From Halanaerobiales bacterium (GTDB lineage: Bacteria; Bacillota; Halanaerobiia; Halanaerobiales; DTU029), in assembly GCA_029981855.1 (NCBI GenBank), contig JARRCS010000012.1, positions 1 to 64,000 of the forward strand: a stretch of 64,000 nucleotides of DNA, in the 5' to 3' direction. Below are positions 20,539-31,066 of this stretch, one piece after another (within the stretch, counting starts at the first letter, position 1; every line of letters begins with the position of its first letter). Below the pieces are notes generated by a model that was not told the origin of the DNA, did not search any database, and was given only the letters and a program-made list of their open reading frames with translations. Both the position numbers and the translations under genes were made by a program.

Positions 20539-21192
20539 GTGAAGATTATAAAAGAAAATATTACTGACCAAATTTATAACGTGTTAAAAGAAAAGATAAT
20601 AAGACGTGATATAAAACCTGGGGAACAGATTAACCCTAAAGATATCGCCAATAAATATGATATTAGTATTATGCCGGTCAGGGATGCTTTATTAAGGTTG
20701 GTAAATAAAGGATTAGTGGTGAATAAATCAAGGGTTGGATTTTTCGTGAAATCTTTTTCCTGTAAAGAAATTAAAGAGATTATGGAACTAAGAAAAATGT
20801 TTGAAACCTATTGTCTAAGAGAAAATTTTGATTTGCTGGATAAAATACGAATCAAACGAATAAAAAATTATATGTCTGCTATTGAGGGAAACTTAACCAG
20901 GGAAGAATTTGATAAAATTGATTTTGAACTACATGATTACTTTATTAATGTATCTAATAATAGTTATTTGATTAAAAATTACTCTCAATTAATTGATTTC
21001 TTTCATTTATTCAGAGGATTAGATATTGACCGCCTTAAAGAAGCTCATCAGGAACATCAGGAAATTTTAAATGCAATTTTGGATAATGATAGGTCAAAGG
21101 CGGTAGAAAAATTAGAAAGACATATTGAAATGGTAACTTTAGCAATTTTAAATAACTTAAAAGGAGACCAGGATACTAGCAGCGCATCCTGA
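20539..21192 (+). CDS. GntR-family regulator, FadR/FCD subfamily
   Basis: The protein (217 residues) has an N-terminal winged helix (about 8-72; KPGEQINPKDIA, then MPVRDALLRLVNKGLV) and an all-helical FCD effector domain (about 80-210). FCD regulators usually sense carboxylates such as hexuronates, gluconate, lactate or pyruvate. The genes downstream (LarA-like enzyme, TRAP transporter, KDG kinase and KDPG aldolase) act on hydroxy acids and sugar acids, so it is likely their regulator (inference). GTG 20539 follows GAGGAAG at 20524-20530. Lower GC than the rest of the window extends from here to about 27 kb. Confidence 0.9.
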   Translation: MKIIKENITDQIYNVLKEKIIRRDIKPGEQINPKDIANKYDISIMPVRDALLRLVNKGLVVNKSRVGFFVKSFSCKEIKEIMELRKMFETYCLRENFDLLDKIRIKRIKNYMSAIEGNLTREEFDKIDFELHDYFINVSNNSYLIKNYSQLIDFFHLFRGLDIDRLKEAHQEHQEILNAILDNDRSKAVEKLERHIEMVTLAILNNLKGDQDTSSAS

Positions 21193-21513
21193 TAAGAAAC
21201 ATAATTAATATAAGAATATTGATATGTTTTATTTAATATATATATAATTTAATAATAGAAATTATTTTCCAATTATACTTTATAAGATAATAAGTTAATC
21301 AAAGTTATAAGATTATAAGATTATAAGCCCTCTTGATAATACTTTTGTTACTAATAATAGGGGGTGATTTTTTTTTTAATATAGTTTATAGTTTGTATAA
21401 TATGAGGAACTGTGTTTAATAATTTGGAATAAATTTAAGAAAAGGGAATGATGGACTAGGGTTTTTGGTACTGGTTGTTTCTGGACAGGCATTATACAAT
21501 AATTTATGGCTAA

Positions 21514-21603
21514 ACTAAGGAAGAAGTTTTACTTGATAATAATAAGCCGGTAGTTACTTGCGATAAATCAATGGATATGTTTGAAGGGGTTGTTTTAGTA
21601 TGA
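21514..21603 (+). pseudogene. 3'-terminal scrap of an unidentified gene, ATGA-coupled to the larA homologue
   Basis: A frame of 29 codons (with KPVVTCDKSMDMFEGVVLV at its end) closes with a TGA at 21601-21603 that overlaps the next ATG as ATGA, the classic form of translational coupling. It is broken upstream by TAA at 21511 and has no start, so it looks like the tail of a gene that once preceded larA. I do not recognise the family. The rest of the 407-bp gap 21193-21599 holds TTATAAGA-type short direct repeats (21302-21327) and a TATAAT at 21396-21401. Confidence 0.4.
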
Positions 21604-22865
21604 AAGTTGATTTCTATTACCCGGAAATTGCAGGTGTCGAAATTCCTGACAAAAATTTGTTGGGAGTATTCAAACCTAACATTAGGGATTGTAATCTTAA
21701 TGTAGAAGATTTAATATTAGAAACCCTAAATAAACCAATTAGTACTAAAAAATTAAACCAGGAGCTAAACTCAGGGGACAAGATTTTAATTCTATCAGAT
21801 GATAATACCCGTGCTACCCCGGTTGATAAGATTTTAAAAGTTTTATTGCCTTATCTCCATGATCTAGGGATTAAAAAAGAAGATATTATCATTCTGATGG
21901 CATTAGCAACTCATAGACCTATGAGTCGGCAAGAATTAATTTCTAAGTTGGGACAGCAAATAGTTGAGGAGTATAAGGTAGTCAACCATCTCTGGGATAA
22001 GGAAGAACAAAATATTTATTACGGGAAAACCTCAAAAGGTATTAAAGTATATGGAAATAAATTAGTAAAGGAAGCTGATTTTATTATCGGATTAGGTCAC
22101 ATAGTACCTCACAGGGTAGCAGGATTTTCAGGAGGAGGAAAGATTGCTCAACCAGGTGTGTGTACAGGAGTAACAACTGGTGAGACTCACTGGATGAGTG
22201 CTTTGGTTCCGGGTACTGAAATTATAGGAAAAAGGGATAATCTAATTAGGGAACAAATAGATGAAGCTGCTAGACTAATGGGATTAAACTTTATAATTAA
22301 CGTAGTGCAGGATCTAAAAGGGAGAGTAGTAGGGGTATTTGCTGGCGATCTAGTTGATGCTCATCGTGTAGGGTGTGAATTAGCTAAAGAAGTGTATGGG
22401 GTCAAGATTCCAAAAGCTGATATCATTATTACAGATTCATATCCGGCTGATATTGAATTATGGCAGGCGGCAAAAGGAATTTATTCTTCCGAGTTAGTGG
22501 TTAAAGAAAATGGCTATGTTATATTAGTAACCCCCTGTCCTGAGGGAGTGGCTAAAACCCATCCTGAAATCGAAGAATTTGGATATCAAACTTTAGAAGA
22601 AACAGAAAAGCTTATAAATGAAGGAAAATTAAAAGAGATGAGTGTAGCTGCTCATTTAGTTCATGTTGGTAGGGTTATAAAAGAAAAGGCTAATGGAATT
22701 TTGGTTTCACCCAATATCCCTAATGAAGTTAAAGAGAAATTAGGTTTTATTTCAGCTGATTCTGTACAAGAAGCATTATCTTATGCTTTAAATAAAAAAG
22801 GTAAAGATGCTTCTGTTGTTGTTATGTTACATGCAGGTGAGATTTTACCAATTAATTCAGAATAA
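21600..22865 (+). CDS. LarA-family nickel-pincer hydroxyacid racemase/epimerase
   Basis: The protein (421 residues) belongs to the lactate racemase superfamily (DUF2088 N-terminal domain). Residues expected for the nickel-pincer cofactor site align at a constant offset to L. plantarum LarA: H105 (LATHRPMS), H171 (VPHRVAGFSGGGK), K181 (cofactor-linking lysine) and H197 (GETHW, nickel ligand). D68 and R71 lie in LSDDNTRATP. Characterised relatives act on lactate, malate, phenyllactate, hydroxyglutarate and on D-gluconate at C2. With a TRAP transporter, KDG kinase and KDPG aldolase nearby, an aldonate 2-epimerase is an attractive reading. LarB, LarC and LarE, which make the cofactor, are not in the window. 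ATG at 21600 follows AAGGGG. Confidence 0.85.
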   Translation: MKVDFYYPEIAGVEIPDKNLLGVFKPNIRDCNLNVEDLILETLNKPISTKKLNQELNSGDKILILSDDNTRATPVDKILKVLLPYLHDLGIKKEDIIILMALATHRPMSRQELISKLGQQIVEEYKVVNHLWDKEEQNIYYGKTSKGIKVYGNKLVKEADFIIGLGHIVPHRVAGFSGGGKIAQPGVCTGVTTGETHWMSALVPGTEIIGKRDNLIREQIDEAARLMGLNFIINVVQDLKGRVVGVFAGDLVDAHRVGCELAKEVYGVKIPKADIIITDSYPADIELWQAAKGIYSSELVVKENGYVILVTPCPEGVAKTHPEIEEFGYQTLEETEKLINEGKLKEMSVAAHLVHVGRVIKEKANGILVSPNIPNEVKEKLGFISADSVQEALSYALNKKGKDASVVVMLHAGEILPINSE

Positions 22866-22934
22866 TATTATAGGGAATTATAGGAGCTTTTTACTTTTTA
22901 ATATAGGATGAATATTTTAGGATATTAAAACATC

Positions 22935-22951
22935 GTTACACAATGTGGAAC
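22935..22951 (+). promoter_or_regulatory. Near-palindrome upstream of the URO-D-like gene
   Basis: GTTACACA and TGTGGAAC around a central A form a 17-bp dyad with one mismatched pair, in the gap 22866-23106. It could be a regulator site. The same sequence is not repeated elsewhere in the window that I can see, so this is a weak call. Confidence 0.3.
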
Positions 22952-23106
22952 GAAAGGATTCAATACTAGAGTTATGACAATCTAAACCCAAAATGTTCAT
23001 TGAAAAATTAATATATAAAATGTCAAAAGGAGTGTTTATAGCTAATGTTACTTTATTTAACGCGCAAAAAAAATGTAGCTTATTTTAACCAATGGGGGTG
23101 TTTTTG

Positions 23107-24252
23107 TTGAGTATGACATCAAGAGAGAGAGTTTTAGCAGCAGTAAATTTATCTATTCCGGACAGGGTTCCCATGGATTTAGGAGGTAGTACTTGCTCAA
23201 CTATTACTATAGAACCTTATCTAACATTAAAGAAGATGCTCGGTTTTGAAGGGGAAGCAAACATAGTCACGAAAATATACCAGACAGTTTTTGTCGATAG
23301 GCCTGTGGCAGAAGCCCTTAATGTAGATACCTGTATGGTTCATGCCAGAGATCCAAAACTACCACCACAAGAATCTCCAGATTTATTTACCAGCGATTGG
23401 GGAATAACATACCAACGAACCAGTAAAGGTGATAATTTTTATTGGGATATTGTTAAAAACCCTTTAAAGGGAGCTACTATTGAAGACTTAGAGAATTATC
23501 CCTGGCCTGACCCATTTTCTCCTGAAAGAACAGAAGGATTAAAACAAGAAGCTAAAAAGCTGCATGAGGAAACAGATTATGCAGTTATTGGTAATATTGG
23601 TTTTTCCGGTATTTTCGAGGCCAGTTGGATGCTCAGAGGATTTGAAGACTTCTTAGTCGATCTTATGGTTAACAAGGATTTTGCACATGCTCTATTACGA
23701 AAAGTAACTAATATAATGATTGATAGATATAAGGGTTTTTTAGACGAAGTAAAAGATTATCTTGATTTAGTTTTCATTGGTGATGATCTGGCTACTCAGG
23801 CAGCCCCCATTATGTCAGTTGAAACTTATCGGGAAATGATAAAACCCTATCAGAAAGAGTACTTTGAATTTGTTAAAAGTTATTCTGGTAAAAAATTAAT
23901 CTATCATAGTTGTGGAAATATTGTACCTATATTAAATGACCTAATTGAGATAGGTGTTAATGCAATTAATCCGGTACAGGTTTCTGCAGATAATATGGAT
24001 CCAATTTATCTTAAAGAAAAGTTTGGTGACAGGGTTTGTTTCTGGGGAAGTGTAGATACTCAAAGGGTTATGAGTAAAGGTACACCTGAGGAAGTACGTA
24101 AAGAGGTCCTGGAAAGAATTAAAGTATTTGGTCAGAATGGCGGTTTTGTTTTGGCTCCGGTTCACAACGTACAGTTTGATGTTCCGGCCGAGAATGTTCT
24201 TGCCCTTTACGAAACTGGCTATAAGTATGGAAAATATCCATTAGATGTTTAA
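23107..24252 (+). CDS. Uroporphyrinogen decarboxylase-fold protein (URO-D/methyltransferase family)
   Basis: The protein (381 residues) has the URO-D superfamily entry SRERVLAAVN...PDRVPMDLGG, the central VFIGDDLATQ, SCGNIVPILNDLIEIG and the closing GGFVLAPVHNVQFDVPAEN. Such stand-alone members in anaerobes are mostly cobamide-dependent methyltransferases or enzymes of unknown sugar or aromatic metabolism, not haem enzymes. The CH/SCG motif that binds zinc in methyltransferases is partly present (HSCG). Proximity to the LarA-like and TRAP genes points to catabolism of the imported acid, unproven. TTG at 23107 is chosen because GGGGGTG (23094-23100) is 6 nt upstream; ATG 23113 is the alternative. 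Confidence 0.8.
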   Translation: MSMTSRERVLAAVNLSIPDRVPMDLGGSTCSTITIEPYLTLKKMLGFEGEANIVTKIYQTVFVDRPVAEALNVDTCMVHARDPKLPPQESPDLFTSDWGITYQRTSKGDNFYWDIVKNPLKGATIEDLENYPWPDPFSPERTEGLKQEAKKLHEETDYAVIGNIGFSGIFEASWMLRGFEDFLVDLMVNKDFAHALLRKVTNIMIDRYKGFLDEVKDYLDLVFIGDDLATQAAPIMSVETYREMIKPYQKEYFEFVKSYSGKKLIYHSCGNIVPILNDLIEIGVNAINPVQVSADNMDPIYLKEKFGDRVCFWGSVDTQRVMSKGTPEEVRKEVLERIKVFGQNGGFVLAPVHNVQFDVPAENVLALYETGYKYGKYPLDV

Positions 24253-24360
24253 TAAAAAATGTCAAATTAATAAATTTACTATATATTTCACAGCAATATA
24301 CCAGGTATAAGATATAATTTTAGATAAAGCAATTTATTTTAGCAATTATTTATTAGTGGT

Positions 24361-24370
24361 AGGAGGTGAT
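24361..24370 (+). promoter_or_regulatory. Orphan perfect Shine-Dalgarno in the dctP leader
   Basis: AGGAGGTGAT is a ten-base match to the anti-SD, about 90 nt upstream of the dctP ATG, and only a seven-codon frame (TTG 24382) follows. A TATAAT at 24313-24318 upstream suggests it lies in the 5' leader. It parallels the orphan site before the ABC binding-protein gene at 9311-9320. Confidence 0.4.
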
Positions 24371-24460
24371 ACAAAAAATAATTGAATAGAATATTATTAA
24401 AATAATAGAAAACATTGGAAAAACTTAAAAAATGTAAAAATTTAAGGAGGATTTTAAAAC

Positions 24461-25441
24461 ATGAAAAAGAATTATCTGAAAATTATTGTTCTATCTTTAT
24501 TTTTAACATTTGTTGTCAGTAGTCTGGTTGGAGCTACAACTCTAAAGATTGCTAACTATTATGCGGTAGATCACCCTGTAAACCAAATATTAAGAGAAAC
24601 ATTTAAGCCTATGGTAGAAGAAGGAACTAATGGAGAGATTAAGGTACAAATATATCCTAATAATCAGTTGGGTGCTGAGGTTGAGTTCTGTGAAGGCGTA
24701 AAACTGGGGACAATTGAAATGGCTATGTCTGGTAATATGTGGGAAAACTATGTGCCTATCTTTAAGGTAAATCAGTTACCATATATGTTTGTTAACTATG
24801 ACCATGCTAATGCAGTACTAAATGGTCCTATTGGTGAAAAAATTTATAGCCATTTAGAAAAGATAGGAGTTAAAGTGCTGGCATCATTCCCAAATGGATT
24901 TAGGGTTGTATCTAATAATAAAAAGCCAATTCGCTCTATCGAAGATTGTAAAGGTATCAAACTACGTGTTTTCCAGGGTGAAGTTATTATTAAAGAAATG
25001 AAGGCTTTAGGTTTTGATACCGTTGTTATGCCTTTTAGTGAAATCTTTACTGCCTTACAGCAGGGGGTTGTTGACGGGCAGGATAATCCACTTGCCACTG
25101 CTTACTATGCAGGTTGGTATGACGTACAAAAATATGTTGCTATTACAAATCATATGTATAGCCCAGGATATATAGTTATAAATAAAAGGGTTTGGGATAA
25201 GCTTTCTGTAGAGCAACAAGATTTACTTAAAGAGGCAGCTCGGGTTACTGCTGAAAAAATATTAGATGCAGTTCGCAGCCAGACTGATGAAATAGTTAAA
25301 GAGATTACTAGTAAGGGTGTTATTGTAACCCATCCTGACCTGAAACCTTTTATTGAAAAGGTCCAGCCAATAATAAATGAATACCGTGAAAAGTATCCTA
25401 TCATTGATGAGATTCAAGAACTGGGTAAAGAATACCTTTAA
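24461..25441 (+). CDS. dctP: TRAP transporter solute-binding protein (DctP family)
   Basis: This extracytoplasmic binding protein (326 residues) captures an organic or sugar acid for the DctQM permease. The signal peptide spans about residues 1-25 (IIVLSLFLTFVVSSLVGA). The mature part shows the DctP pattern: TLKIANYYAVDHPVN at the N terminus, the KGIKLRVFQG segment that carries the conserved arginine binding the ligand carboxylate, and VDGQDNPLATAY. Sugar-acid TRAP binders look like this, but the ligand needs structure or binding data. AAGGAGG lies 10 nt before ATG 24461. A 14-bp hairpin follows its stop. Confidence 0.94.
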   Translation: MKKNYLKIIVLSLFLTFVVSSLVGATTLKIANYYAVDHPVNQILRETFKPMVEEGTNGEIKVQIYPNNQLGAEVEFCEGVKLGTIEMAMSGNMWENYVPIFKVNQLPYMFVNYDHANAVLNGPIGEKIYSHLEKIGVKVLASFPNGFRVVSNNKKPIRSIEDCKGIKLRVFQGEVIIKEMKALGFDTVVMPFSEIFTALQQGVVDGQDNPLATAYYAGWYDVQKYVAITNHMYSPGYIVINKRVWDKLSVEQQDLLKEAARVTAEKILDAVRSQTDEIVKEITSKGVIVTHPDLKPFIEKVQPIINEYREKYPIIDEIQELGKEYL

Positions 25442-25462
25442 TTCGTTAAATGAAATTATTGG

Positions 25463-25493
25463 CCAGGTACTGGTTTTTCAAACCAGTACCTGG
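25463..25493 (+). other. Intercistronic RNA hairpin after dctP
   Basis: CCAGGTACTGGTTT (25463-25476) and AAACCAGTACCTGG (25480-25493) are exact reverse complements, giving a 14-bp stem with a 3-nt loop. Only TCTTTGAA follows, so it is a poor terminator. It probably protects dctP mRNA or attenuates dctQM. Confidence 0.65.
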
Positions 25494-25504
25494 TCTTTGA
25501 AGGG

Positions 25505-26011
25505 ATGATGATTTTGAATAAAGCTCTTAATACCTTATATAAGATTGTGGAATTATTAATGATAATTATGTTAGTACTAATGGTTTTTTCAATTTTTTTA
25601 AATATAATCTTCAGGTATTTTGGATCAGCATTTTCCTGGGTAGATGAAGTAAGCAGATTAACCTTTGTATGGATGTCATTTTTAGCTGTTACAGTAGCTT
25701 TCAAAAAGGGTTTGCATCCGTCCTTTGATATAATACTGGAAAAATTAGATAATAAAAAGGCTAAAGTATTGTTAACCATTATTAACTTGTCAATCTTGGT
25801 TTTTTTACTCATTCTTTTAAAAGGCAGTATAGACTATAATACCCAGATATACTTTCAACGAACAGCAATTTTAGGAATTTCAGTATCATGGAAATATTCT
25901 GCGATTCCAGTTACAACAGTTATAATGTTTCTGGAGACAATAAATAAACTTATTATGATCTGGAAAAAAGATGAGATAGAAATAAAACAAAGCAAAGGTG
26001 GGGTGTTATAG
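25505..26011 (+). CDS. dctQ: TRAP transporter small permease (DctQ family)
   Basis: The protein (168 residues) has four hydrophobic helices, the length and topology of DctQ, the small membrane subunit that joins the binding protein to DctM. The VDEVSRLTFVWMSFLAVTVAFKKG region is the family signature (W-x-DE-x-R and the following GA/VAF segment). The stop TAG at 26009-26011 abuts the ATG of dctM. The start is uncertain: ATG 25505 and 25508 sit on top of AAGGG (25500-25504), so TTG 25514, nine bases beyond it, is a good alternative. Confidence 0.88.
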   Translation: MMILNKALNTLYKIVELLMIIMLVLMVFSIFLNIIFRYFGSAFSWVDEVSRLTFVWMSFLAVTVAFKKGLHPSFDIILEKLDNKKAKVLLTIINLSILVFLLILLKGSIDYNTQIYFQRTAILGISVSWKYSAIPVTTVIMFLETINKLIMIWKKDEIEIKQSKGGVL

Positions 26012-27286
26012 ATGACTGTACTCTTAACCTTTTTAGGTTCTTTAATAGGGTTAACTATATTAGGGATTCCAATAGGATTTGTTATTGCTATAACATCAAT
26101 CATTATAATGTATTTAATAGGTATGCCTGAACCAATGATCCTGGCAAGAAGACTGGTAACTGGTGTTGATATTTTTACACTGTTGGCTATTCCCTTTTTT
26201 ATGTTGGCCGGAGAAATAATGAATAAGGCAGGATTAGTTGAAGATATACTTAAATTTGCTAATGCTATTGTTGGACGCTTAAAAGGTGGTTTAGCTTATG
26301 TAAATATTGTAGCGAGTATGTTGTTTGCTGGTATAAGTGGTTCTGCAGTTGCTGATACAGCAGCTTTAGGTTCTTTAGAGATACCGATGATGGAAAAGGA
26401 TGGTTATGACAGGCCTTTTTCTGCTGCTATTACTGCTTCAGCAGTAATAGGTCCGATTATTCCTCCCAGTATTCCAATGATAATCCTGGGGTCTATCGGC
26501 CAATTATCTATTTCTAAACTATTTTTGGGCGGAGCTATTCCTGGAATTCTAATAGGGCTTTCTCTTATTCTTGTCTCTTATTTTATCGCTAAGAAAAGAG
26601 ATTACCCAGTTAGCAACCAGCGAATAAGTTTAAGAGAATTTTCCCAGATTTTTAAAAATACTATATGGGCATTAATACTGCCTATAATCATATTAGGAGG
26701 AATTATTGGAGGTATTTTTACTGCTACTGAGGCCGGTGCCATTGCAGTAATTTATGCGGTTATAATTTCATTTACGGTATATGATGTAAAACTAAAAGAT
26801 TATCCTGATATACTAAAAGGAGCAGCTTTAAATACAGGAATAGTTGTTTTAGTTTGTGGGGCTGCAATGACTCTAACCTGGTATTTGGCGGTAGCTCAGT
26901 TGCCTCAGATTTTAACCTCCATCTTAATGGGTATTACCAAAAATCCGTTAATCTTTTTATTTGTATTAAATCTACTATTGTTCGTTGTAGGAATGATTAT
27001 TGACCTGACACCTGCTTTATTCCTGTTGGTTCCTATTTTATTACCTGTCATTAAAGCCTATGGTATTGACCCAATTCACTTTGGCGTTATTATGGTTGCT
27101 AACCTTTGCATAGGTTTAATTACCCCACCAGTGGGTACAGTATTATATGTTACTAATTCCATTTCTAAGGTAAAATTGGATAGACTCGTTAAAGAACTGG
27201 TGCCTATGTACGTTGTACTCTTTATAGTTTTAATGATCATTACCTATGTCCCAAAATTAATATTATGGCTACCTTCTTTAATTTAA
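26012..27286 (+). CDS. dctM: TRAP transporter large permease (DctM family)
   Basis: This Na+-coupled transport channel (424 residues) has about twelve membrane segments. Family motifs are PFFMLAGEIMNKAG, the conserved GISGSAVADTAALGSLEIPMM loop split over the first half, GPIIPPSIPMIILG, and the pseudo-repeat ITPPVGTVLYVTNSI in the second half. Length is typical. It begins one base after the dctQ stop, with AAAGGTGGGG (25995-26003) as ribosome site, so DctQ and DctM are made together. With dctP it forms a complete carboxylate importer. Confidence 0.95.
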   Translation: MTVLLTFLGSLIGLTILGIPIGFVIAITSIIIMYLIGMPEPMILARRLVTGVDIFTLLAIPFFMLAGEIMNKAGLVEDILKFANAIVGRLKGGLAYVNIVASMLFAGISGSAVADTAALGSLEIPMMEKDGYDRPFSAAITASAVIGPIIPPSIPMIILGSIGQLSISKLFLGGAIPGILIGLSLILVSYFIAKKRDYPVSNQRISLREFSQIFKNTIWALILPIIILGGIIGGIFTATEAGAIAVIYAVIISFTVYDVKLKDYPDILKGAALNTGIVVLVCGAAMTLTWYLAVAQLPQILTSILMGITKNPLIFLFVLNLLLFVVGMIIDLTPALFLLVPILLPVIKAYGIDPIHFGVIMVANLCIGLITPPVGTVLYVTNSISKVKLDRLVKELVPMYVVLFIVLMIITYVPKLILWLPSLI

Positions 27287-27398
27287 ACAGCCTTTGGAAA
27301 TATTATAAACAAACATTAGCACATTAACCCCATGTTAATTTACAGGAGATAATCTAAATATGCATGTAGATTATTAGTAGTAGATATTCATGCCATCA

Positions 27399-27498
27399 TC
27401 TGTACAGGAAGCTCTGGCTTATGTCCCTTGAGAAAAAAGGAGAAGAAGCTATCATAAGCCGGATGCTCTATGCGGGAGAAATTTTACCTATACTATAA
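27399..27498 (+). pseudogene. 3'-terminal remnant of a second LarA-family gene
   Basis: Codons from 27399 read SVQEALAYVP then stop, and with a +1 shift from 27430 they continue EKKGEEAIISRMLYAGEILPIL to a TAA at 27496-27498. The intact LarA protein of this window ends with SVQEALSYALNKKG and MLHAGEILPINSE, so the match in order and spacing is clear. The fragment covers only the last about 35 residues and is frameshifted. It lies in the 231-bp gap before the hydroxyacid dehydrogenase gene. Confidence 0.7.
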
Positions 27499-27517
27499 GA
27501 TAAAAGGAGGTTTTTTG

Positions 27518-28492
27518 ATGGCTAAATTTAAGGTTTTAGTAACAGATTATGAATATAAGACTTTGGAGTATGAAGAGAAGGTATTGGCAGAGATCGATGC
27601 AGAATTGTTAAAGGCTCAGTGTAAGACAGAGGAAGAGGTAATTGAAGCAGCCAAAGAAGTAGATGCCCTTTTAGTTCAGTATGCCCCGATAGGTAGGAAG
27701 GTTTTTGCAGCATTACCACGGTTAAAGGCTGTTGCCCGTTACGGGGTTGGTGTTGATGTTATAGATTTAGAGGCAGCTACCGAACATGGTGTATATGTTG
27801 TCAATGTCCCCGATTACTGTGAAGATGAGGTATCGGATCATACCCTTGCTTTACTTATGGCCTGTACCAGAAAAGTAGTCTTACTTAATAATGATGTAAA
27901 GGGTGGAAACTGGGATTTCAATATCTCTAAACCGATTTTCCGCCTTAGGGGTAAGACCCTGGGTATTGTAGGATTTGGGAAAATACCCCGTAAATTAGCA
28001 GAAAAGGCAAAAGCCTTTGGTCTTGAAATACTTGTATATGATCCCTTTGTAAATAAAGAGGTAGAGGAAGAATACGGAGTAAAATTATTAGAACTGGATG
28101 AGTTGATGAAGAGGGCTGATTTTGTTTCCATTCATGTTCCCTTAAATAAAAATACAAGACACATGATTAGTACCCATGAGTTTGAGTTAATGAAGGAATC
28201 CGCCTTTATAATCAATACTGCGCGTGGTCCGGTAATTGACGAAAAAGCCCTAATTAATGCTTTAAAAGATAATAAAATTGCTGGTGCTGCTCTGGATGTA
28301 ATCGAAGAGGAGCCTATTGCCAAAGATAGCTCATTACTTGAAATGGATAATGTTATAATTACTCCTCATGTTGCCTGGTATTCAGAGGAAGCCCAGGTAG
28401 AGTTGCAGACTAAAGCAGCTCAGGGTGTAGCTGATGTACTGTTAGGTAAAGAGCCTAAGTATTTAGTTAATAAAGAGGTATTGAATAAATAA
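27518..28492 (+). CDS. NAD-dependent D-2-hydroxyacid dehydrogenase (PGDH/CtBP-like)
   Basis: The protein (324 residues) reduces 2-oxo acids or oxidises D-2-hydroxy acids. The Rossmann loop reads GIVGFGKIPRKLA, with proline where the third glycine often is, as in CtBP-like members. The catalytic arginine is in NTARGPVID, the acidic helper in DVIEEEP, and the histidine in ITPHVAWYS. Phosphoglycerate dehydrogenases of this length without an ACT domain look similar, so serine synthesis cannot be excluded; the sugar-acid neighbourhood favours 2-ketoaldonate or hydroxyacid metabolism. ATG 27518 is fixed by AAAGGAGG at 27503-27510; an upstream in-frame ATG is inside the LarA remnant. Confidence 0.88.
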   Translation: MAKFKVLVTDYEYKTLEYEEKVLAEIDAELLKAQCKTEEEVIEAAKEVDALLVQYAPIGRKVFAALPRLKAVARYGVGVDVIDLEAATEHGVYVVNVPDYCEDEVSDHTLALLMACTRKVVLLNNDVKGGNWDFNISKPIFRLRGKTLGIVGFGKIPRKLAEKAKAFGLEILVYDPFVNKEVEEEYGVKLLELDELMKRADFVSIHVPLNKNTRHMISTHEFELMKESAFIINTARGPVIDEKALINALKDNKIAGAALDVIEEEPIAKDSSLLEMDNVIITPHVAWYSEEAQVELQTKAAQGVADVLLGKEPKYLVNKEVLNK

Positions 28493-28500
28493 TAAAAGAG

Positions 28501-28650
28501 ATGATCATAAATCAGAAACAACGACAAAATTACCAGTTGAGTATGGCTGATCACCGCGGAAAATGGGAACCAACACCGTATACAGGTAATATTGCTAAAT
28601 TAGTCAAAATGTTAACCAAAGATTTTTCATTTACCTTGATTGATTTCTAA
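28501..28650 (+). CDS. Possible small protein of 49 residues
   Basis: An ATG at 28501, 8 bp after the dehydrogenase stop, opens a 49-codon frame ending at TAA 28650. It contains ADHRGKWEPTPYTGN and a hydrophobic, acidic C terminus (KDFSFTLIDF). The composition looks protein-like rather than random, but the ribosome site is weak (AAAGAG directly adjacent), and I do not recognise a family. It may be the surviving end of a larger gene, as other gene ends survive in this region. The rest of the gap to 28767 shows nothing I can support. Confidence 0.35.
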   Translation: MIINQKQRQNYQLSMADHRGKWEPTPYTGNIAKLVKMLTKDFSFTLIDF

Positions 28651-28767
28651 AAAACACCAGTAAGCTTAAGATGGTTAATTATTCCATTTGGTCGAAAGGA
28701 TTTATGAAACACTGTACTAGTTAGTTTTAGCCTGCTTAGGGCATTTAGAAGGAGGGTAAATTAAATA

Positions 28768-29217
28768 ATGATTATTGATAGCCTTGAAAATGCTTCTTCT
28801 TACTATGGAATAAGTGAGAAATTAAAAAAGGCTTTTAAATTCTTAGAAGAACGAGACCTTGCAGAAATGGAAGTAGGTAAATATGAGATAGATGGAGAAA
28901 ATATTTTTGCTATAGTGGATTCATATGAGACTAAGCCTGAGGAAGAAGGTGTTTGGGAAGGACATCGGAAATATATTGATATTCAATATCTTGTAGAAGG
29001 AATTGAGTTGATAGGTTATTCTAATTTGGAGAAAATGAACCTTAAAGAATATGATGTGGAAAAAGACTTTGCAGTATTTGCTGGAGAAGGGGAGTTTCTT
29101 AAATTAGAGGCAGGATATTTTATGGTTTTTATGCCCCAAGATATTCATATGCCTGGTATTGCTGTTGATGGTAGTCAAGCAGCAAAAAAGGTAATTGTTA
29201 AAGTTAAAGTTGATTAA
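28768..29217 (+). CDS. YhcH/YjgK/YiaL (TabA-like) cupin protein
   Basis: This 149-residue beta-sandwich protein belongs to the YhcH/YjgK/YiaL family, small cupin-like proteins encoded beside sialic acid, hexuronate and other sugar-acid genes; they are thought to be anomerases or isomerases or modulators, with metal ligands in the cup. The conserved EGHRKYIDIQYLVEG segment and the FMPQDIHMPG histidine motif are both present. Position between the 2-hydroxyacid dehydrogenase and KDG kinase genes agrees with a role in the same sugar-acid route. GGAGG lies about 10 nt before ATG 28768. Confidence 0.88.
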   Translation: MIIDSLENASSYYGISEKLKKAFKFLEERDLAEMEVGKYEIDGENIFAIVDSYETKPEEEGVWEGHRKYIDIQYLVEGIELIGYSNLEKMNLKEYDVEKDFAVFAGEGEFLKLEAGYFMVFMPQDIHMPGIAVDGSQAAKKVIVKVKVD

Positions 29218-29229
29218 ATTGCTATACAT

Positions 29230-29257
29230 GTAGAGCTCAGACTAAAGTAGCTCAGGG
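29230..29257 (+). pseudogene. Tail remnant of a second 2-hydroxyacid dehydrogenase gene
   Basis: The stretch GTAGAGCTCAGACTAAAG and the following AGCTCAGGG at 29230-29257 match 28398-28424 in the intact dehydrogenase gene (VELQTKAAQG) with one deleted base and one substitution creating a stop. It lies in the short gap between yhcH and kdgK, has no start, and cannot be functional. Confidence 0.5.
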
Positions 29258-29304
29258 AATACTTAGATTGTCTAGAAAAAAACAAATAACCAGGGGGAAT
29301 ATTC

Positions 29305-30258
29305 ATGGCACTTGATGTGGTTACATTTGGGGAAACTATGATACTGATGAATCCTCAGGAAAGTGGTTCATTAAAATATGTTAATCAGTTCACAAAACAA
29401 ATAGGTGGGGCTGAATCTAATTTTGCCATTGCCTTGACCCGACTGGGGTTTAAAACTGGTTGGATCAGTCGCCTAGGGAAGGATAGTTTTGGTGATTATA
29501 TGGAGGCCTTTATCAGGGGTGAAGGTGTGGATGTTTCCCAAATTAAGCGGGATAAAAACCACCCTACCGGCTTGATGTTCAAGGAAAGATATGAGTTAGG
29601 AGAGACTAAGGTATATTATTACCGGCATGATTCCGCTGCCAGTAAGCTGCAACCAGAGGATTTGAATGAGGAATATATCAGTCAGGCTAAGTATCTGCAT
29701 TTAACTGGTATTACCCCTGCTTTAAGTCCTTCCTGCAGAGAGACGGTTTATAAAGCGATTGAAATAGCCCATAAACATGGTCTTAAAGTAACCTTTGACC
29801 CTAATTTGAGGTTAAAGCTCTGGAGCAAGGAAGAGATGAGGCGGGTTATTTTAGATATCTGTAGTAAGGTAGACATTGTCTTACCGGGATTAAGTGAAGG
29901 AAAGATACTATTAGATATAGAGGAACCGGAAACGATTATAGATGAGTTATTAAAATTAGGACCGGAGATTGTTGTCCTTAAAACTGGCGCAAAGGGCGCC
30001 ATTGCTGCAACCCCGGAATATAAAAAACAGGTGCCTGGATTTAAAGTAGAAAGAATCGTTGATCCGATAGGAGCTGGTGATGGCTTTGCTGCTGGTCTTG
30101 TAGCCGGTCTGTTAAAGGGATATGATTTGGTTGAATCAGTAAGACTGGCTAATGCCGTAGGTGCTTTTGCTACAACGGTTAAAGGTGATGTTGAGGGTTA
30201 TCCTACCTGGGATGAATTACAGGTCTTTTTAGGAAATAAAGAAGATATTGACAGGTAA
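29305..30258 (+). CDS. kdgK: 2-keto-3-deoxygluconate kinase (PfkB family)
   Basis: KdgK phosphorylates 2-keto-3-deoxygluconate (KDG) to KDPG with ATP. The 317-residue protein has PfkB signature 1 in IGGAESNFAIALTRLG (about residues 32-47), the YYYRHDSAASKL segment typical of KDG kinases (a YYR substrate contact), and signature 2 DPIGAGDGFAAG with the catalytic aspartate (DG) near residue 255. The next gene is KDPG aldolase, 38 bp downstream, completing KDG to pyruvate plus glyceraldehyde-3-phosphate. GGGGG precedes ATG 29305. Confidence 0.93.
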   Translation: MALDVVTFGETMILMNPQESGSLKYVNQFTKQIGGAESNFAIALTRLGFKTGWISRLGKDSFGDYMEAFIRGEGVDVSQIKRDKNHPTGLMFKERYELGETKVYYYRHDSAASKLQPEDLNEEYISQAKYLHLTGITPALSPSCRETVYKAIEIAHKHGLKVTFDPNLRLKLWSKEEMRRVILDICSKVDIVLPGLSEGKILLDIEEPETIIDELLKLGPEIVVLKTGAKGAIAATPEYKKQVPGFKVERIVDPIGAGDGFAAGLVAGLLKGYDLVESVRLANAVGAFATTVKGDVEGYPTWDELQVFLGNKEDIDR

Positions 30259-30296
30259 TACTAAAATAATTGTTTAATGAAGAGAGGGTGTTTATT

Positions 30297-30947
30297 TTGG
30301 ATAAAAGTCAGATATTACAGGTTGTTGAAGAGACGGGTTTGGTAGCAGTAATTCGGGGGATGGAACCGGCTAAAATGGCCAAAATTGCTAAAGCATTAGT
30401 GGCCGGGGGGGTTAAAGCCTTAGAAATAACTATGAACAGCCCCCAACCCCTGAAGATGATTGAAGAGGTCAAATCCCTATTAGAGGGTACAGATGTTATT
30501 GTTGGGGCCGGTACCGTTTTAGACCAGGAGAGTGCCCGGGCGGCAATTATAGCTGGAGCTGAGTTTATCTTTGCCCCCAATCTCAATCTAAAGGTAATAG
30601 AGCTTTGCAGGAGGTATGATAAATTAGTAATGCCCGGGGTGATGACCCCAACTGAAATTGTAACTGCCTGGGAAGCAGGAGCAGACCTGGTAAAGATATT
30701 TCCGGCCAATGTAGTAGGGCCTGCATTTATTAAAGGGGTGAAAGCTCCCTTAAATCAAGTTAAGATGATTCCTACCGGAGGGATTAATCTGGATAATGCT
30801 GCTGATTTTATCAAGGCTGGAGCAGTTGCTCTGGGAGTTGGCGGAAGTTTATTAGATAAAGAGATTATAGCTAATGAGGATTATGAAGCATTAACTGGAA
30901 GGGCCCGGGCCTTTCAGAAAATCGTTAAGGAGGCTCGTGAGGGATAA
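30297..30947 (+). CDS. eda: KDPG/KHG aldolase
   Basis: This class I aldolase splits KDPG into pyruvate and glyceraldehyde-3-phosphate. The 216-residue protein has E43 (ALEITMNS, proton shuttle), GAGTVLD, and the Schiff-base lysine K133 in DLVKIFPAN, followed by the phosphate-binding IPTGGINLDNA. TTG 30297 is preferred, with AGAGGGTG at 30283-30290; an in-frame ATG at 30270 would add nine residues with no ribosome site. It is cotranscribed with kdgK and ended by the hairpins at 30983-31066. Confidence 0.94.
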   Translation: MDKSQILQVVEETGLVAVIRGMEPAKMAKIAKALVAGGVKALEITMNSPQPLKMIEEVKSLLEGTDVIVGAGTVLDQESARAAIIAGAEFIFAPNLNLKVIELCRRYDKLVMPGVMTPTEIVTAWEAGADLVKIFPANVVGPAFIKGVKAPLNQVKMIPTGGINLDNAADFIKAGAVALGVGGSLLDKEIIANEDYEALTGRARAFQKIVKEAREG

Positions 30948-30982: not shown

Positions 30983-31066
30983 ATTCCCTTCCCGGGAAAT
31001 ACATTTTTACGGGAAGGGAATAATTTATTAAATAAAACCTACATCTTTAGCAGGTTTTATTTTTTT
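30983..31066 (+). terminator. Double hairpin terminator after eda
   Basis: The first stem is ATTCCCTTCCCG (30983-30994) with CGGGAAGGGAAT (31010-31021), 12 bp perfect. The second is AAATAAAACCT (31030-31040) with AGGTTTTATTT (31052-31062), followed by TTTTG, a standard Rho-independent terminator. Together they close the kdgK-eda transcript. The remaining gap to 31213 shows nothing else I can support. Confidence 0.75.

Follow-up and report, generated by a model that had tools for sequence, protein, structure and literature searches.

In a 64,000-nucleotide stretch of a Halanaerobiales bacterium genome (assembly GCA_029981855.1, contig JARRCS010000012.1, positions 1 to 64,000 of the forward strand; hereafter the window), we analysed positions 20539 to 30947, a cluster that contains a gene for a LarA-family nickel-pincer-nucleotide (NPN) enzyme at 21600 to 22865. 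We propose that this cluster imports and catabolises hexonic acids and that LarA serves as a hexonate (aldonate) C2-epimerase, most likely acting on D-mannonate/D-gluconate, and we give this reading a probability of roughly 0.65. It draws on the active site and fold of LarA, its pocket residues, its genomic context including galactonate dehydratase (DgoD) neighbours in relatives, a larA remnant inside the operon, and the likeness of the importer's binding protein to HiGulP. The original prediction of a LarA-type aldonate C2-epimerase gained support from a motif pair shared with GntE2, from the conserved linkage to kinase, dehydrogenase, aldolase and dehydratase genes, and from the remnant; its further step of dehydration to 2-keto-3-deoxygluconate (KDG) did not. 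Function has been predicted for only about half of LarA homologues (PMC11770544), and here one LarA branch with no earlier assignment gains a specific substrate class and a residue-level prediction (Arg172 for Glu). The cluster broadens an enzyme family that is already known and does not amount to a novel type of system.

Active site, fold and cofactor supply

The window LarA contains both Pfam domains, with scores of 169 bits for Lar_N (cut-off 23.3) and 46 bits for LarA_C (cut-off 25). Its residues H105, H171, K181 and H197 align with H108, H174, K184 and H200 of LarA, so the intact active site claimed from the sequence alone was read correctly. D68, R71 and K292 are likewise conserved, the equivalents of Asp72 and Lys298 included, and the NPN-binding and catalytic set is complete. 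The AlphaFold model (pLDDT, a per-residue confidence score, of 93.8) matched NPN-bound LarA with a Z score of 50. The structure search returned lactate racemase at Z 50 and GntE2 at Z 39 and did not discriminate between substrates.

The genome encodes LarC, LarE and LarB above their curated cut-offs, and the NPN cofactor can therefore be made by this organism. The three genes lie together on another contig with a CbiMQO-type metal importer, in a single run of larC, cbiM, PDGLE, cbiQ, an ABC ATPase gene, larE and larB (contig 24, locus L053, 7757 to 13004).

Four full LarA-family genes and one fragment were found in the genome. In two further paralogues, Asn replaces the catalytic Lys298 (YQMLNS). 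One of them (L050, 9444 to 10721) is accompanied by TRAP (tripartite ATP-independent periplasmic) transporter genes, a gene for a distant URO-D-like protein and EtfBA/GlcD-type genes, and the other (L052, 522 to 1805) by TRAP, D-2-hydroxyacid dehydrogenase (HADH), DgoK-like and DHDPS-like genes.

Substrate pocket of LarA

The window LarA scored below the cut-off of every curated LarAH model: 304 against 500 bits for the LarAH6 malate racemase, 271 against 460 for lactate racemase (NF033504), 263 against 540 for LarAH10, 237 against 462 for the second malate racemase model of the LarAH5/LarAH6 pair, and 88 against 500 for the putative hexonate epimerase NF052594. We compared it with homologues from genomes of the same order, class and phylum, together with a genome-contig scan with a single protein, which contributed two loci. 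Fifteen further homologues with 45 to 80% identity carry the same signature, and with the window LarA they make up the "RV clade" (n = 16). All 16 contain His171-Arg172-Val173 and Trp288, the latter at the position of Tyr294 in LarA, and 15 of them contain AAH[LV] in helix 14, which reads AAHLV in the window protein.

These two pocket features are shared with hexonate-type enzymes. Trp at the Tyr294 position was present in all 17 sequences of the curated hexonate family NF052594 (group 18; 17 correctly read sequences were counted, with three open reading frames excluded) and in GntE2, but in none of 26 lactate/malate-type and other controls. The helix-14 pattern AAH[LVMI][VIA] was found in 15/16 RV sequences, 17/17 NF052594 sequences and GntE2, as opposed to 0/26 controls and 0/8 sister sequences. 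Published work places the specificity elements of LarA enzymes at the two positions that follow the second His and in two C-terminal helices (PMC7583248, PMC11770544, PMC11851776), and the motifs shared by RV sequences and GntE2 sit in exactly these elements. According to the literature, GntEs usually have E, V, A and H at four key positions. The RV sequences have R, V, A and H if their helix 14 follows the GntE2 alignment; MAFFT, however, placed it as in Mar2, so it could be shifted by one residue.

The closest comparison is with GntE2 (LarAH20 of Thermotoga maritima, PDB 4nar) and NF052594, which share the catalytic residues, the Trp and the AAH(L/V) helix 14 with the window LarA. They differ from it in having Glu, not Arg, after the second His, and the two groups lie apart in a quick midpoint-rooted tree. 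In that tree, the RV and sister sequences took an intermediate position, with the GntE/NF052594 group on one side and the lactate/malate group on the other, and were not united in a single supported clade; the RV clade is therefore defined by its signature and may prove to be a grade. By pocket and context, the window LarA appears to resemble GntE, yet it lies outside the curated GntE families.

The malate racemase Mar2 (LarAH6, PDB 6d6z) has the same fold and gave both the best curated score and the best PDB sequence match. However, the window LarA has HL instead of HK in helix 14, and so lacks the Lys, and has Trp in place of Tyr at 294; with the scores below both LarAH5/LarAH6 cut-offs, we rejected a malate racemase identity as the best explanation. 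A lactate racemase identity was set aside in the same way, since the loop is RV instead of Phe-Phe, helix 14 has no Trp, and NF033504 did not reach its cut-off. Two candidate hexonate markers also fared poorly: Trp294 alone was weakened by eight sister sequences without sugar-acid neighbours, and the IVPH stretch before the second His was rejected because its PH pair also occurs in 17/26 controls.

Genomic context of LarA relatives

We counted neighbours within 8 kb of the 16 RV genes and, as controls, of 23 LarA genes in related genomes. A kinase for acid sugars, whether of the PfkB-KDG type, FGGY gluconokinase-like or DgoK, was near 15/16 RV genes but only 1/23 controls (Fisher p = 1e-8, although the RV loci are related and the counts not independent, so that p values overstate independence). 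HADH genes were near 14/16 versus 2/23, and KDPG aldolase genes near 7/16 versus 1/23, or 8/16 if the window's own aldolase gene at 8.4 kb is included. The kit varies among RV loci, consisting of KDG kinase and aldolase, of an FGGY kinase (gluconokinase-like, near 8/16 RV genes) with an RpiR regulator, or of DgoK, and this variation speaks for one theme having been selected repeatedly. The NF052594 genes have a similar kit, with an FGGY kinase near 10/19, HADH near 8/19 and KDPG aldolase near 6/19.

Aldonate dehydratases are also found beside these genes. In locus L045 (genome G007), LarA and HADH are separated by a DgoD gene (686 bits, cut-off 311). In L055, from Candidatus Petromonas tenebris, genes for an IlvD-type protein, DgoD, DgoK and the aldolase follow in the same cluster as LarA, and in L105, a cluster of the FGGY type, an IlvD-type gene is directly 3' of LarA. 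An NF052594 LarA gene adjoins DgoD in genome G021. The arrangement in L045 and L055 recalls the De Ley-Doudoroff galactonate pathway (DgoD, DgoK, DgoA), in that a DgoD-type dehydratase, a kinase and an aldolase accompany an RV LarA; the window cluster, in contrast, has neither DgoD nor DgoK. The single-contig genome G044 has one IlvD-family gene (L085, 117 to 1841), which is of the aldonate type (557 bits against a cut-off of 618 for dihydroxy-acid dehydratase, DHAD) and lies near LarA.

A larA remnant inside the operon

The gene order DctM-LarA-HADH-KdgK-Eda was observed in L085, L086 and L055, and L045 differs by the DgoD gene inserted after LarA. In the window, the intact larA instead lies upstream of the transporter genes. 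However, the gap between DctM and HADH contains a decayed, frameshifted 3' end of a second larA (27387 to 27497, + strand), with 14/23 amino acids identical to the LarA C-terminus and an E value of 4e-5 when the window alone was searched. The DNA of this remnant aligns with the larA-HADH junction of L085, and it occupies the position that larA has in the related operons. By these alignments, the ancestral operon most likely had larA immediately before HADH, and the intact larA is most likely a relocated or second copy. The remnant thus ties LarA to the dehydrogenase, kinase and aldolase in this very lineage.

Importer and its likely ligand class

The cluster encodes a complete TRAP importer: the solute-binding protein DctP (24461 to 25441; TIGR00787, 235 bits, cut-off 175), the small permease DctQ (25505 to 26011; Pfam DctQ, 87.5 bits) and the large permease DctM (26012 to 27286; TIGR00786, 442 bits, cut-off 268). 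The best PDB sequence match of DctP was 4pbq, with 40% identity over 260 amino acids. This entry is HiGulP, which binds L-gulonate and D-mannonate (PMC5788505). Identity at this level indicates only the ligand class of DctP, and a structure search with DctP gave many tied sugar-acid and sialic-acid binders that did not tell the ligand apart. The Haemophilus influenzae L-gulonate pathway to which HiGulP belongs (GulPQM, UxuB, UxuA, KdgK, KdgA; PMC5788505) likewise pairs a TRAP importer for a hexonate with a KDG kinase and an aldolase. It uses dehydrogenases and UxuA, whereas the window cluster has a LarA epimerase.

Proposed pathway and the dehydration step

In the proposed pathway, DctPQM would take up an aldonate or 2-ketoaldonate. 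LarA, with the NPN cofactor from LarB, LarE and LarC, would invert the hexonate at C2 through transient hydride transfer, a chemistry that is established for the family. The most likely conversion would be that of D-mannonate into D-gluconate; the D-talonate/D-galactonate pair is the alternative. From the corresponding 2-ketoaldonate, HADH may form this same 2R aldonate by reduction, and LarA and HADH would therefore provide two entries into one pool. A dehydratase would then turn the aldonate into a 2-keto-3-deoxy-hexonate, as the DgoD- or IlvD-type enzymes encoded near LarA in relatives might do. YhcH may bring the keto-deoxy acid from its ring form into the open form, and the PfkB kinase and KDPG aldolase would complete the route to pyruvate and glyceraldehyde 3-phosphate. 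Of this semi-phosphorylative hexonate pathway, the KDG kinase (above the Pfam cut-off, below the equivalog cut-off) and the KDPG aldolase are present. The substrate class, the direction and role of HADH and the identity of the dehydratase are all predictions from sequence.

The window contains no dehydratase gene, as had been noted from its sequence, and the search of the whole genome gave the same picture. No DgoD-type enzyme was found in the genome, only two distant enolase-superfamily proteins with 32% identity, nor were UxuA or UxaA/GarD-type enzymes; the assembly is an estimated ~100% complete but comprises 39 contigs, and a gene could have been lost at a contig break. The single IlvD-family protein of this genome is a true DHAD (823 bits, equivalog cut-off 618), and a second IlvD that could act as the dehydratase was not found in it. 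The expectation that C2 epimerisation precedes dehydration to KDG was therefore not supported in this genome. With no dedicated dehydratase, either moonlighting by DHAD or a dehydratase-free route is needed. The former has precedent, since the DHAD of Saccharolobus dehydrates D-gluconate to KDG (PMC9314677), and the single DHAD possibly performs the dehydration step here. The cluster thus raises the question of where KDG comes from in a genome that has a KDG kinase and an aldolase but no dedicated aldonate dehydratase.

Several observations weigh against hexonate epimerisation by LarA. No dedicated aldonate dehydratase is present in the genome, the curated models closest to LarA describe malate and lactate racemases (all below cut-off), and eight sister homologues have Trp294 without sugar-acid kinase neighbours. 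In addition, the residue after the second catalytic His is Arg172 in 16/16 RV sequences but Glu in all GntE-type sequences, and the relatedness of the RV loci limits the weight of the neighbour counts.

Alternative substrates and routes

The top curated scores of LarA suggest a different reading, in which it racemises a small 2-hydroxyacid (malate, lactate or glycerate), HADH acts as a reductase of the hydroxypyruvate/glyoxylate type, and the kinase and aldolase serve another pathway. The resemblance of HADH to glyoxylate reductase is consistent with this. However, LarA has neither the malate-racemase Lys nor the lactate-racemase FF/W signature, sugar-acid kinases are near nearly all RV genes, and the genome has a separate malate racemase (L051, 3700 to 4968; 557 bits, cut-off 500), whose gene directly adjoins a malic-enzyme-like gene. 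We consider this reading unlikely, though it is the strongest of the three alternatives. A dehydratase-free route is slightly less probable. In it, LarA would equilibrate C2-epimeric 3-deoxyhexonates (e.g., metasaccharinates), HADH would oxidise one epimer to KDG, and the kinase and aldolase would follow. Its appeal is that these four enzymes alone form a complete pathway, that their genes occur in the order LarA-HADH-KdgK-Eda in the window lineage, L085, L086 and L055, and that the genome has no dedicated aldonate dehydratase. The relatives nevertheless keep dehydratases beside LarA, which makes this route less likely: a DgoD or IlvD-type gene is nearby in L085, L086, L055 and L045, i.e., in four of the five LarA-HADH-KdgK-Eda clusters, the window being the exception, and directly beside LarA in L045 and in the FGGY-type L105. 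Furthermore, no account of such a pathway was found in the collection of papers searched.

The invariant Arg172 in place of the GntE Glu might instead recognise a charged aldonate, a 6-phosphoaldonate or an aldarate. Loop residues contact the C-alpha substituent (PMC11851776), and the Arg is present throughout the RV sequences. The FGGY gluconokinase-like kinases beside half of the RV genes also fit such a substrate. However, a KDG-type kinase and an aldolase beside LarA imply that the C6 hydroxyl is still free at this point, and the cargo of TRAP importers is usually an unphosphorylated acid. We regard a charged substrate as the least probable of these alternatives, and a hexonate C2-epimerase as the preferred assignment.

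Other genes of the cluster

All listed genes are on the + strand. The original prediction had bounded the locus at 21600 to 30947; the genes are as listed, except that the FCD/GntR-family regulator (20539 to 21192; Pfam FCD 58.8 bits and GntR 55 bits, both above cut-off) lies just outside this start. The linkage with LarA of the regulator, the TRAP importer, the URO-D-like protein, HADH, YhcH, the KDG kinase and the KDPG aldolase was otherwise borne out, with all genes intact and in place. DctPQM, HADH, YhcH, the PfkB kinase and the aldolase exceeded their Pfam cut-offs.

HADH (27515 to 28492; Pfam 2-Hacid_dh_C, 219 bits) is an NAD-type D-2-hydroxyacid dehydrogenase and a predicted 2-ketoaldonate reductase; its PDB relatives include phosphoglycerate dehydrogenase (PGDH), glyoxylate reductase and a probable 2-ketogluconate reductase. 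The PfkB-family kinase (29305 to 30258) is KDG/KDGal kinase-like, with KDG_KDGal_kin as its best NCBIfam model (261 bits, below the cut-off of 400) and KDG kinases among its top PDB matches. It is followed by the KDPG/KHG aldolase gene eda (30270 to 30947; TIGR01182, 192 bits, cut-off 156). The YhcH/YjgK/YiaL family protein (28768 to 29217; TIGR00022, 121 bits, cut-off 45.5) belongs to a sugar-acid anomerase family, which includes an anomerase through which an aldolase receives its 2-keto sugar acid in open form (PMC8141875).

A terminator-like hairpin lies 3' of the aldolase gene (30984 to 30998, + strand), and the pattern scan gave no further site of this kind on the + strand from 21193 up to this hairpin; the number of sites in the scan was not above chance. 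The window search found no known RNA elements. Shared operator motifs in the intergenic regions were considered and rejected, the matches being A+T-rich chance only. In the gap between HADH and YhcH, an open frame at 28495 to 28647, ending ...GKWEPTPYTGNIAKLVKMLTKDFSFTLIDF, is possibly a gene remnant, with a DUF3024 match below threshold only.

The URO-D/MtaA-CmuA-like protein (23092 to 24252, with a possible alternative ATG start at 23113; Pfam URO-D, 103 bits) is encoded in the window cluster and in none of the clusters of the 15 RV relatives. It had a weak PDB match to methylcobalamin:coenzyme M methyltransferase. The protein carries HSC and a VHN stretch, the latter presumably at the place where methyltransferases carry the Cys that is the third zinc ligand.

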